Source of the DNA: Pseudolabrys sp.
GTDB lineage: Bacteria > Pseudomonadota > Alphaproteobacteria > Rhizobiales > Xanthobacteraceae
Direction of reading: 5' to 3'
Assembly (NCBI GenBank): GCA_029980465.1
Contig: JARYIJ010000001.1
Location: 930,001 to 994,000 of the forward strand
DNA length: 64,000 bases
Under the pieces are notes generated by a model. The model did not search any database. It was not told the origin of the DNA and saw only the letters and a program-made list of their open reading frames with translations. Shown one piece after another: positions 5,158-63,758 of the stretch. The stretch's first letter is position 1. Each line of letters starts with the position of its first letter. A program made the translations under genes and the position numbers.

Positions 5158-5379
5158 TCAATACTGCGAATTCAGGAAGCGCTGCTCAATCACCCGCTCG
5201 GCGGTATCGGTCATCTTGCCGCCGCTGAGCGCCAGGTAGCGTGAGATCTCCAAATCGGCTTGATGATGGCGCGACACCACCATGGCGCGGAGCAGGCGCG
5301 ACAACAAACCCGGCTTGGCCGGTTTGCCGGTCGCGACGCGCGCGTTCGGAGCGGAAAGCGCTGTGGAGAGGAAAGCCAT
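5158..5379 (-). CDS. Small hypothetical protein of 73 residues
   Basis: The product starts with a short hydrophobic/alanine stretch (MAFLSTALSAPNA), continues with a basic helix (LLSRLLRAMVVSRHHQADLEISRYLAL) and ends with a helical, charged segment (DTAERVIEQRFL). The spread of charged residues over predicted helices argues for a real gene. It precedes another small gene by 26 bases. I recognise no domain. A cytosolic helical protein or small regulator is possible but not shown. Confidence 0.6.
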   Translation of the reverse strand: MAFLSTALSAPNARVATGKPAKPGLLSRLLRAMVVSRHHQADLEISRYLALSGGKMTDTAERVIEQRFLNSQY

Positions 5380-5757
5380 GATCGCATCATCCTTTTCAGG
5401 TTCGACGATCCCAGAACGTTCCCTTTCTTGCTTTTGTTGCCCCGTAAATAGGAGGATTCGGCGGGAGTGAGCAGTCGCAATCCGACATAAATCCTATGCA
5501 CGGAAGCATGCGCGCATTGCTGGCATGTCGCGGCGTCGTACTTGAAATGTCATGTCGCGTAGGCCGGCGGCGCGCATGATTCTTCCCCGGCTCGTTACAT
5601 GCGGGCAGGACGGCGGCACAGGCGCAACGGCCTCACCGGTAACCTGTATTGGCTTTTTGGCCCTGCACGAGCCCCTCGCTCACGGGCATGTGTTGCATTG
5701 TGTAGTGCGCATCCCGCCATTCCTGCTTAAACCGCCCCCCAACCACGGGAGCACGCC
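5380..5757. other. Non-coding stretch upstream of msrA
   Basis: No convincing gene is seen. The stretch holds the upstream regions of the divergent small-gene unit (minus strand) and of msrA (plus strand). A 69-codon open frame ending at 5761 overlaps the msrA start and looks like chance. A possible weak ribosome site (GGGAGCA) lies before the msrA ATG. Confidence 0.5.
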
Positions 5758-6468
5758 ATGATCTCGACCCGCCGCTTCGCCGTTGCCGCTATCGTTGCGT
5801 CGTTGGCCGGCTTTTCCGCGCTGCCGGCACGTGCCGACGGCATCGTGACGATCGCCCCGCCTTCGGCGGACGCGCCAGCATCCGGCGCGAGCCTCGAAAC
5901 CGCCGTGCTGGCGGGCGGATGCTTCTGGGGCATCCAGGCCGTCTATCAGCACGTCAAGGGCGTCACCAATGCCGTGTCCGGTTATGCCGGCGGCACCGTG
6001 AAGAATCCCGATTATGAAACCGTATCGAGCGGAACGAGCGGCCATGCCGAATCCGTGAAGATCACATTCGATCCGCGCATCGTCTCCTACGGCAAGATCC
6101 TGCAAATCTTCTTCTCGGTTGCGCACAATCCGACCACGCTGGACCGTCAGGGCCCCGACGAGGGCACGCAGTACCGCTCGGAAATCTTTCCGCAGAGCGA
6201 GGCGCAGGCGACGATCGCGCGCGACTACATCGCACAGCTCGACGCCTCACATGCCTTCAAGTATCCGATCGTCACCAAGATCGGCACGGTCGGGACGCCA
6301 TTCTATCCGGCCGAGTCCTATCATCAGGACTACGCGACGCTGCACCCATACGCGCCGTACATCGTGTTCAACGATGCACCGAAGATCGCCAATCTGAAAA
6401 AGACGTTCCCCGGGTTGTGGCGCGACAAGCCCGTCACGGTCGCGGCGGCTGGCGGGGTCGGCGGCTGA
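5758..6468 (+). CDS. msrA: Exported peptide-methionine (S)-S-oxide reductase with a single cysteine
   Basis: This 236-residue protein reduces methionine-S-sulfoxide in proteins. An N-terminal signal peptide (about 26 residues, cleavage near ARADG) sends it to the periplasm. The MsrA domain follows, with the catalytic motif GCFWG (Cys55), the segments SGYAGG and GHAESVKI, the motif DRQGPDEGTQYRS, and the late motif AESYHQDY. The only cysteine in the whole protein is Cys55, so the resolving cysteines found at the C-terminus of enzymes such as E. coli MsrA are absent. Regeneration must use a direct external thiol or a partner protein. The stop is 3 bases from the convergent thioesterase stop. 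No MsrB lies next to it. Confidence 0.93.
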   Translation: MISTRRFAVAAIVASLAGFSALPARADGIVTIAPPSADAPASGASLETAVLAGGCFWGIQAVYQHVKGVTNAVSGYAGGTVKNPDYETVSSGTSGHAESVKITFDPRIVSYGKILQIFFSVAHNPTTLDRQGPDEGTQYRSEIFPQSEAQATIARDYIAQLDASHAFKYPIVTKIGTVGTPFYPAESYHQDYATLHPYAPYIVFNDAPKIANLKKTFPGLWRDKPVTVAAAGGVGG

Positions 6469-32927: not shown

Positions 32928-33893
32928 ATGTCCAAGACGATCCACGCCAAGGTGGTCATTATCGGCTCGGGGCCTGCGGGCTACACAGCCGCGATCTACG
33001 CCGCCCGCGCCATGCTCGAGCCCATCCTGCTGCAGGGCATCCAGCCTGGCGGCCAGCTCACCATCACCACCGACGTCGAGAACTATCCCGGCTATGCCGA
33101 CGTCATCCAGGGCCCCTGGCTCATGGAGCAGATGCAGAAGCAGGCCGAGCATGTCGGCACCAGGATCATCACCGACACGGTGACAAAAGCCGAGCTCAAC
33201 CAGCGTCCATTCCGCCTCACCTGCGACTCCGGCGACATCTATCTTGCCGAGGCGCTGATCATCGCGACCGGTGCGCAAGCGCGCTGGCTCGACCTGCCCT
33301 CCGAGCAGAAATTCAAAGGCTATGGCGTGTCGGCCTGCGCCACCTGCGACGGCTTCTTCTACCGCAACAAGAACGTTATCGTGGTCGGCGGCGGCAATAC
33401 CGCGGTCGAGGAAGCGCTATTCCTCACCAACTTCGCCAGCAAGGTCACGGTGGTGCACCGGCGCGACAGCTTCCGCGCCGAGAAAATCCTGCAGGACCGC
33501 CTGTTCAAGCATCCGAAGATCGACGTGATCTGGGACACGACGCTTCACGACGTGGCGGGCGACGAGAACCCGCTCAAGGTGCGCACCGTCAAGCTCAAGA
33601 ACGTGAAGACCGGCGCGGTCACCGAGAAGGCCGTCGACGGCGTCTTCATCGCCATCGGCCATTCGCCCTCCTCCGAGCTTTTCGCCGGCCAGATCGACAT
33701 GAAGCCGTCCGGCTACATCGTCACCAGAGGCTATTCGACGGCAACGTCGGTGTCGGGCGTGTTCGCCGCCGGTGACGTCACCGACGAGATTTACCGGCAG
33801 GCCGTCACCGCCGCCGGGCAAGGCTGCATGGCGGCGCTCGAGGCGCAGAAATTTCTTCATGCGCAGGAGTCGCATCGCGCCGCGGCCGAATAG
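32928..33893 (+). CDS. trxB: Thioredoxin-disulfide reductase
   Basis: The 321-residue flavoenzyme passes electrons from NADPH to thioredoxin. The FAD-binding GSGPAGYTAAIYAARA, the redox-active CATC (137-140) in ACATCDGFFYRN, the NADPH-binding VGGGNTAVEEAL and HRRDSFRAEKI, and the closing GVFAAGDVTDEIYRQAVTAAGQGCMAA are all in the expected order. I use the ATG at 32928 (MSKTIHAK); an earlier in-frame ATG at 32844 adds 28 residues of poor conservation. The LysR gene starts 17 bases after its stop, so the two are probably cotranscribed, a layout conserved in Rhizobiales. Confidence 0.97.
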   Translation: MSKTIHAKVVIIGSGPAGYTAAIYAARAMLEPILLQGIQPGGQLTITTDVENYPGYADVIQGPWLMEQMQKQAEHVGTRIITDTVTKAELNQRPFRLTCDSGDIYLAEALIIATGAQARWLDLPSEQKFKGYGVSACATCDGFFYRNKNVIVVGGGNTAVEEALFLTNFASKVTVVHRRDSFRAEKILQDRLFKHPKIDVIWDTTLHDVAGDENPLKVRTVKLKNVKTGAVTEKAVDGVFIAIGHSPSSELFAGQIDMKPSGYIVTRGYSTATSVSGVFAAGDVTDEIYRQAVTAAGQGCMAALEAQKFLHAQESHRAAAE

Positions 33894-33910: not shown

Positions 33911-34819
33911 ATGGCCAACGGCACGACGATGGACTGGGACAAGCTGAAGGTGTTCCACGCCGCAGCGGAGGCGGGCTCCTTCACGCATGCGGGCGAGCGG
34001 CTCGGCCTGTCGCAGTCAGCGGTGTCGCGCCAGGTCTCGGCGCTTGAATCCGAGCTCTCGGTTTCGCTGTTTCACCGCCACGCGCGCGGCCTGATCCTCA
34101 CCGAACAGGGCGAACTGCTCTACCGCACCGCGCACGAAGTCTTCATGAAGCTCGAGGCGGCGCGCACGAAGCTCACCGACAGCCGCGAGCGGCCGAACGG
34201 CGAGCTCAAGGTATCGACCACGCCGGGCATCGGTGTGGACTGGCTGACGCCCAAGCTCGGCGAATTCCTCGATCTCTATCCCGACATTCAGATCACGCTG
34301 ATCACCTCGGAGGAAGAACTCGACCTCGCCATGCGCGAGGCCGACGTCGCCATTCGTCTGCGCCAACCGACGCAACCTGACCTCATCCAGCGCAAGCTGT
34401 TCTCGGTGCATTTTCACGCTTACGCGTCGCCGGATTATCTCAAACGCTTCGGCACGCCGCGCACGCACGAGGAGCTCGACAAACACCGCATCGTGCTGCT
34501 CGGCGGTCATGTGCCGCCGCATTTCCAGAACCGGCGCTTTCTGCTCGAAGCTGCCCGCGAGGGCAAAGGCGAGCGTACGCCAAGCTTCACGGTCAACAAC
34601 GTGCTCGGCCTGCTGCGGGCCTGCCAGCGCGGCCTCGGCATCGCGATGCTTCCCGATTATCTCGTCGAGGAGAACGGCGGCCTCGTGCAGTTGTTCGGTG
34701 ACGCGGAAGCGCTCGCGCTCGACGCATTCTTCGTCTACCCGGAAGAACTCAAGTCCGTGGCGCGCGTGCAGGTGTTTCGCGACTTCCTCGTCGCCAACGC
34801 GCAGCGCTGGAATTTCTAG
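33911..34819 (+). CDS. LysR regulator of the LsrB/VtlR type
   Basis: The 302-residue protein has a LysR winged HTH (about 8-67: MDWDKLKVFHAAAEAGSFT, LGLSQSAVSRQVSALE) and a periplasmic-binding-like effector domain (about 95-300). Position directly after trxB and overall sequence match LsrB of Sinorhizobium, a redox-linked regulator, whose Brucella orthologue VtlR activates the AbcR2 small RNA. The only cysteine is Cys238 (LLRACQRGLG), the effector-domain position I recall as redox-relevant in LsrB. Here a candidate LysR box and an AbcR-like RNA gene follow the stop codon. The family call is firm; the LsrB/VtlR equivalence is from context. Confidence 0.88.
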   Translation: MANGTTMDWDKLKVFHAAAEAGSFTHAGERLGLSQSAVSRQVSALESELSVSLFHRHARGLILTEQGELLYRTAHEVFMKLEAARTKLTDSRERPNGELKVSTTPGIGVDWLTPKLGEFLDLYPDIQITLITSEEELDLAMREADVAIRLRQPTQPDLIQRKLFSVHFHAYASPDYLKRFGTPRTHEELDKHRIVLLGGHVPPHFQNRRFLLEAAREGKGERTPSFTVNNVLGLLRACQRGLGIAMLPDYLVEENGGLVQLFGDAEALALDAFFVYPEELKSVARVQVFRDFLVANAQRWNF

Positions 34820-34829
34820 CGGGTAAGTT

Positions 34830-34842
34830 TCAGCATAGCTGA
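34830..34842. promoter_or_regulatory. LysR-type T-N11-A palindrome
   Basis: TCAGC-ATA-GCTGA is a perfect 13-base T-N11-A palindrome 10 bases after the LysR stop codon. Its centre lies about 59 bases before the proposed start of the small RNA, the usual place for a LysR activator's recognition site. Confidence 0.55.
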
Positions 34843-34858
34843 CATGCGGCGCGGTGCG

Positions 34859-34887
34859 TTGTTTGTGCGGCTTGGATGCGGTTATTG
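34859..34887 (+). promoter_or_regulatory. Candidate promoter of the small RNA
   Basis: TTGTTT (34859-34864), a 17-base spacer and TTATTG (34882-34887) would start transcription near 34894-34896, right at the foot of the first hairpin. The -10 is weak, in keeping with a gene that needs an activator. Confidence 0.45.
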
Positions 34888-34894
34888 AAGATCG

Positions 34895-35009
34895 TCGCTG
34901 AGCACCGGGGTATCCTCCCAGAGTCACCGGTGTTCAGCAGTTCCCCTCTGGAAGACACCGGCCCCACGCCGGTTGACTAAGCCGGGCTCCCCTGTGGAGC
35001 CCGGTTTTT
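34895..35009 (+). ncRNA. Trans-acting small RNA resembling AbcR (alpha-r15 family)
   Basis: The region folds into three hairpins. The first has a 12-bp stem (GCTGAGCACCGG 34897-34908 with CCGGTGTTCAGC 34927-34938) and an 18-base loop holding TATCCTCCCAGAG, a strong anti-Shine-Dalgarno sequence. A single-stranded link holds a second one (GTTCCCCTCTGG, 34940-34951). The second hairpin is ACCGGC-CCCAC-GCCGGT, and the third is the terminator CCGGGCTCC-CCTGT-GGAGCCCGG followed by five T (34982-35009). Length (~115 nt), three-stem plan and two exposed CCUCCC/CCCCUC motifs match what is known of AbcR RNAs, which with Hfq block translation of ABC-transporter mRNAs. No protein frame fits here. Confidence 0.72.
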
Positions 35010-63201: not shown

Positions 63202-63314
63202 GAGCGCGCTCCTTATTGTGCTCCTTGCGCCGTATTGACGGCGACCGGATTATCCCGCAGCGATTCGTGTGGCGACATCAAGATCCCGCTCCCGACTGTC
63301 CGGCCGTTTCACCA

Positions 63315-63758
63315 ATGGATTCCGACACCCTCCGCAGACTGCACTACGCCGCCGCGATCGCCATCGGCGTATTCGCGGCGATGGCGGTGCACATCCTGCT
63401 CACCGTGCTCGGCCTCGGCATCGACACCGTGCTGCGGGATGCGCGTCCGTCGAGCCATGCCGAATTCGTCTCGGCGCTGGCATGGTGGGCAATCGCCGCC
63501 ACGGGATTCATCGGTGGCTGGGCCGCCGGCGCTTATCTGATCGCGGCGGCGCGCGAGCGCGACGCCGTGTACCGGCTCGCCCGGCGGTTCCTGATCGCGG
63601 TCGTCGTCGTGGTGTCGACTGCGGCGGGCCTGCTCAGCAAGACCGGCTCGGCGGCCGGCACAGTCGACGTCATCGCCAGCGGCACCGCGCTCGGCCTCGG
63701 CCTGATCTGTGCATTCTGCGGCGCCCGCTTCGCTTATCTCAACGCCGAGCAGGTGTAG
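63315..63758 (+). CDS. Small inner-membrane protein of unknown function
   Basis: The ~147-residue protein has four predicted membrane helices (AAAIAIGVFAAMAVHILLTVLG, ALAWWAIAATGFIGGWAAGAYLI, RRFLIAVVVVVSTAAGLL and VIASGTALGLGLICAFCGARFAYL). No domain is recognised. The ATG at 63315 opens a compact start (MDSDTLRRLHY); the frame continues upstream but with weaker sequence. It is divergent from the zinc-ribbon gene and its function is unknown. Confidence 0.65.
   Translation: MDSDTLRRLHYAAAIAIGVFAAMAVHILLTVLGLGIDTVLRDARPSSHAEFVSALAWWAIAATGFIGGWAAGAYLIAAARERDAVYRLARRFLIAVVVVVSTAAGLLSKTGSAAGTVDVIASGTALGLGLICAFCGARFAYLNAEQV

Follow-up and report, generated by a model that had tools for sequence, protein, structure and literature searches.

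Control of AbcR1 by LsrB/VtlR has been proven in Sinorhizobium meliloti and Agrobacterium tumefaciens in gel-shift, reporter or RNA-blot experiments, according to the accounts of the two systems (PMC8844928, PMC7486931), and these accounts already contain the trxB-lsrB-abcR layout and its synteny in alphaproteobacteria. In A. tumefaciens C58, VtlR (Atu2186) is described in the gene order trxB-vtlR-abcR with a box, the motifs M1 and M2, and two tandem RNAs, abcR1 and abcR2, downstream on the same strand (PMC7486931). The consensus of the VtlR/LsrB box is given as GCAT-N3-TG-N3-T (PMC7486931, PMC8844928). For S. meliloti, the RNA is reported to adjoin lsrB, with the box at -61 to -49 and the -35/-10 pair just below it; AbcR1 and AbcR2 are in tandem, AbcR2 is under RpoH1, and LsrB is reported to have three cysteines (PMC8844928, PMC3712013). 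In Brucella abortus and B. melitensis, VtlR, the LysR ortholog behind trxB, is described as the activator of AbcR2, which is encoded opposite the second gene downstream (PMC5461406, PMC12595884). The Brucella AbcR RNAs carry the six-base motifs M1 CUCCCA and M2 GUUCCC, as defined in PMC5461406.

We analysed a stretch of 64,000 nucleotides from Pseudolabrys sp., a member of the Xanthobacteraceae, which is referred to as the window. On its plus strand, trxB, lsrB, an LsrB box, a weak promoter, a structured region about 115 bases long and a strong terminator follow each other. The order, box and motifs thus resemble those of A. tumefaciens C58 and the RNA also adjoins lsrB as in S. meliloti, whereas the window has one RNA in place of the two tandem RNAs of these species; in contrast to Brucella, the RNA directly follows the regulator gene, although the six-base motifs are identical. 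Judged from these sequence features, the locus very likely represents the known LsrB/VtlR-AbcR circuit as it occurs in Xanthobacteraceae, in which LsrB would activate the RNA and the RNA would repress transporter mRNAs. What is new is the near-universal pairing of lsrB with the RNA in Xanthobacteraceae, where no sampled genome passes the Rfam cut-off; further additions are the evidence for a box that travels together with the RNA and the lack of the redox cysteine pair. Descriptions of Xanthobacteraceae RNA copies were not found in the parts of the cited literature that deal with the circuit, and an earlier description elsewhere is possible. A well-studied regulator-RNA circuit known from plant symbionts and animal pathogens is thereby extended to a large group of bacteria that live free in soil and water, and an entire family turns out to be missed by the public RNA model.

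The regulator is an LsrB/VtlR-type protein encoded behind trxB

The LysR gene (33911-34819, plus strand; stop codon 34817-34819) encodes a protein of 302 amino acids with LysR domains. Its top match among solved structures was 9HH1, which is A. tumefaciens LsrB as described in PMC11975290; the match was full-length with an E value of 6e-111, whereas the runner-up reached 4e-40. The identity to the Agrobacterium protein was 56% overall, and 51 of 64 residues were identical in the DNA-binding part. Directly upstream lies trxB (32931-33893, plus strand, predicted start codon) for thioredoxin-disulfide reductase, which scored 417 bits with NCBIfam TIGR01292 against a cut-off of 343. From the full-length match and the trxB neighbour, the gene is assigned as an LsrB/VtlR ortholog, in agreement with the first-pass annotation, which had likened the LysR gene to VtlR and LsrB, regulators next to trxB. 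A search of a plasmid collection gave no match.

An AbcR/alpha-r15-type RNA follows lsrB

The RNA was placed at 34895-35009 on the plus strand, with a predicted 5' end. Rfam RF02345 (ar15) has the same motifs and terminator and aligned with it over the full length (1-112), but the score of 23.6 bits was below the curated cut-off of 40, which leaves the locus unmatched by Rfam. Even so, no other site in the 3.77 Mb genome scored higher than this sub-threshold match. The matches that ranked second and third with Rfam (loci L003 and L004), both weak, were not detected by a model built solely from the related LysR set (R1) and were dismissed as chance. Since none of the 150 sampled Xanthobacteraceae genomes passed the ar15 cut-off, the low score is ascribed to the narrow seed of RF02345.

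A second model (R2), built from 30 loci of the LysR set with the window and its closest relatives excluded, scored 60.9 bits with an E value of 1.3e-14 on the window RNA. Thus, the covariance check against alpha-r15/AbcR, which had been suggested from the sequence, fell short with Rfam and succeeded with the independent model. When 34 RNA sequences including that of the window, drawn from 80 related LysR loci, were aligned, 11 of the 16 predicted pairs had changes on both sides. The two-sided change cells numbered 28, compared with 4.9 in shuffles, and none of 500 shuffles reached 28. The covariation was present in three helices, and the signal dropped when the structure was slid. In genome G172, the LsrB of which is 93% identical to the Agrobacterium protein, R1 detected two tandem RNAs right behind LsrB; this pair is the published abcR1-abcR2 layout. 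Elsewhere in the window, R2 matched weakly at 63223-63373 (17.1 bits, with a roughly calibrated E value of 0.004) with no R1 match, which is probably due to chance.

The predicted fold of the RNA was -60.2 kcal/mol versus -40.4 kcal/mol for shuffles (z -5.05), and the reverse strand folded less strongly relative to its shuffles (z -3.04). The third of the three main hairpins is the strong intrinsic terminator (34979-35009, plus strand), which consists of a 12-pair stem and a T run. The RNA of about 115 nt with three hairpins and a strong terminator therefore stands as first annotated. M1 (34915-34920) and M2 (34940-34945), both on the plus strand, match the Brucella motifs of PMC5461406 exactly. 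M1 forms the six-base loop of hairpin 1 and is unpaired with probabilities of 0.89-0.99. M2 is located between hairpins 1 and 2 and is partly inside a small hairpin, UUCC-CCUCU-GGAA, in which UUCC pairs with GGAA; the UCC bases are unpaired with probabilities of only 0.13-0.19. Of the two exposed anti-Shine-Dalgarno runs that had been proposed, M1 is thus open, whereas M2 is exposed only in part. Taken together, sequence and structure identify the RNA as an AbcR/alpha-r15 homolog.

The hairpins are located directly behind lsrB and end in a strong terminator, as would be the case if they were a mere terminator region of lsrB with no trans-acting role. M1 and M2 are, however, near-invariant, three helices covary, and copies of the RNA are present away from lsrB. 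Since the conserved single-stranded motifs and the conserved upstream box contradict a terminator-only reading, we consider it exceedingly improbable and retain the AbcR assignment.

Two further features of the RNA were observed. The sequence CUCUGGAAG after M2 (34940-34954 and its equivalents in relatives) is almost invariant and closes the mini-hairpin over M2, which may gate target pairing. In L075, L080, L083, L084 and other Ancylobacter/Bosea loci, the RNA is shorter and the M1 loop is lost, and M2 and the box have been retained.

The box is found at a near-constant distance from the RNA

The perfect 13-base T-N11-A palindrome of the first-pass annotation is present at 34830-34842 as TCAGCATAGCTGA, with perfect arms TCAGC/GCTGA and a 3-base centre that is not self-complementary. 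It was rejected as the conserved element, because its left arm varies among relatives. The element kept in relatives is GCATAGCTGACATGC (GCAT-N7-ATGC; 34833-34847, plus strand), which overlaps the palindrome but is shifted. The published consensus is matched exactly at 34833-34845, which corresponds to -62 to -50 given the predicted start at 34895 and nearly coincides with the position in S. meliloti. The score of the window box (17.8) alone is within chance for 64 kb, as ten random sequences peaked at 11.7-20.8. However, of the 76 loci with an RNA, 75 have the box at 53-62 bases upstream of where the RNA model starts (about -57), the exception being L050 with its best copy at -95. It is therefore the conservation and the fixed spacing, not the single score, that place the box beyond chance.

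The probable promoter (34859-34888, plus strand) is weak and was missed by a consensus scan. Alignment with relatives (TTG, CATANT) favours the TTG of TTGTTT at 34859-34864 and the -10 TATTGA at 34883-34888 with a spacer of 18 over the proposed pair with a 17-base spacer, which reads TTATTG as the -10. The -10 of the window is weaker than in relatives. Either promoter reading predicts a start near 34895, so that this part of the original proposal is retained.

In five loci (L014, L025, L031-L033), lsrB and the RNA are about 1.2 kb apart and the box remains with the RNA; the three of them that were examined have a gene of about 350 codons in between. The box likewise stays with the RNA in L011, where opposite-strand genes separate it from lsrB, and precedes many unlinked RNA copies in other families. 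Because the box accompanies the RNA irrespective of intervening genes and linkage, it belongs to the RNA. Were the box instead a site for autoregulation or an unrelated LysR site, with no control of the RNA by LsrB, its location near the lsrB stop would be accounted for, in line with the trxB-lsrB autoregulation by LsrB reported in A. tumefaciens, but its distance would not be fixed to the RNA rather than to lsrB when genes intervene, nor would it precede unlinked copies. This explanation is thus very unlikely, and control of the RNA through the box is preferred.

As for minor observations, the intervening gene in the three examined loci encodes a membrane-transporter-like protein with a His-rich tail. 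L048 and L051 have two tandem LsrB boxes, 37-39 bases apart, before one RNA.

Linkage of lsrB and the RNA is widespread

Among 150 Xanthobacteraceae genomes, 145 contained the regulator and 113 an R1 match. The RNA was downstream of lsrB on the same strand within 2 kb in 109 of these 113, with a median gap of 119 bases. Across the order, R1 matched in 49 of 150 genomes and the RNA was linked in 34 of the 49; since R1 was fitted on a single part of the order, absence further out is weak evidence. No recognisable RNA was found near the LysR gene in L040, L052, L053 and L062 when flanks of 1.5-3 kb were searched, which possibly reflects losses or relocations of the RNA; L036, where the contig ends, was left out of this group. 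The wide spread of the linked layout makes it plausible that the compact arrangement of regulator and RNA is ancestral, as had been suggested for the window.

The close linkage bears on the origin of the transcript. The interval from the LysR stop to the RNA yielded no terminator, so that read-through from lsrB must traverse the RNA, and this, like the short median gap, would be expected if the RNA were mainly a processed 3' end of the trxB-lsrB mRNA sharing its terminator and not independently transcribed. Nevertheless, a box and a promoter at fixed spacing precede the RNA, and the box is kept where opposite-strand genes (L011) or, in other genomes, long distances separate the RNA from lsrB. 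We therefore regard a processed 3' end as unlikely and favour transcription from the promoter of the RNA itself.

The proposed redox cysteine pair is absent from most sampled LsrB proteins

A. tumefaciens LsrB has four cysteines, whereas the window LsrB has one, C238, which aligns with C236 of the Agrobacterium protein. According to the structural report, C236 is not conserved and its replacement by Ser is without effect, while C144 and C273 are a conserved pair for which a disulfide is proposed (PMC11975290). The positions of C144 and C273 are occupied by V146 and V275 in the window LsrB, which thus does not have the pair that defines disulfide redox sensing as proposed for A. tumefaciens. 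The idea that Cys238 makes the regulator redox-tuned consequently finds no support, since C238 corresponds to the residue replaceable by Ser and the pair is Val/Val. A single cysteine could still be modified or form an inter-subunit bond, so that redox sensing of some kind is conceivable, although none of the present results supports it.

The pair was absent from all 81 proteins of the LysR set, and C238 was also absent from the Ancylobacter and Bosea group. The pair was likewise absent from 39 of 40 LsrB proteins sampled across the order from about twenty further families, which were hand-picked for spread and are not a random sample. These results suggest that something other than the redox switch attributed to LsrB holds the circuit together, and the occurrence of the circuit in non-pathogenic, single-copy species makes the question of the LsrB signal testable there. 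We give an even chance to the view that, across most of the order, the LsrB-AbcR circuit is old and has no disulfide switch, that LsrB proteins with the conserved box and RNA usually have zero or one cysteine, that the Agrobacterium pair is recent, and that LsrB mainly answers another signal. If so, the signal is perhaps a small molecule in the substrate domain.

Proposed mechanism and candidate targets

In the proposed mechanism, LsrB, encoded just behind trxB, would bind the box (34833-34847), which lies about 55 bases upstream of the RNA start, and activate the weak promoter. The promoter would yield a single AbcR-type RNA, which is about 115 nt long and ends at a terminator of its own. The RNA would then pair with the ribosome-binding regions of mRNAs via M1, and via M2 after opening of the small hairpin, and lower the translation or stability of the targets, mainly mRNAs of ABC-transporter genes. 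Box conservation and the experiments in relatives indicate that LsrB very probably switches on the RNA; pairing and repression of ABC-transporter mRNAs are inferred by analogy with the characterised relatives. Besides repressing such mRNAs, AbcR/alpha-r15 RNAs bind Hfq. A strict search for the M2-complementary AGGGGAAC before ATG gave eight places, none of which was recognised as an ABC-transporter gene. Brucella VtlR is described to control DUF1127 genes as well (PMC5461406, PMC12595884), whereas the DUF1127 genes here have no box and were rejected as further LsrB targets.

Two other LsrB-type boxes were observed in this genome. The box with the best score in the window (19.0), GCATTGCTGGCATG at 5513-5529, is a second strong copy and sits between a minus-strand ORF of 73 amino acids (5161-5379) and a putative MsrA ORF (5758-6468); three relatives of the 73-aa ORF were checked and had no convincing box. 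Outside the window, the box GCATGGCTGCCATG (locus L093, 1501-1514; C1:2349132) scored 22.1 and lies ~125 bases upstream of where a secreted-looking protein, another candidate target of LsrB, probably starts.
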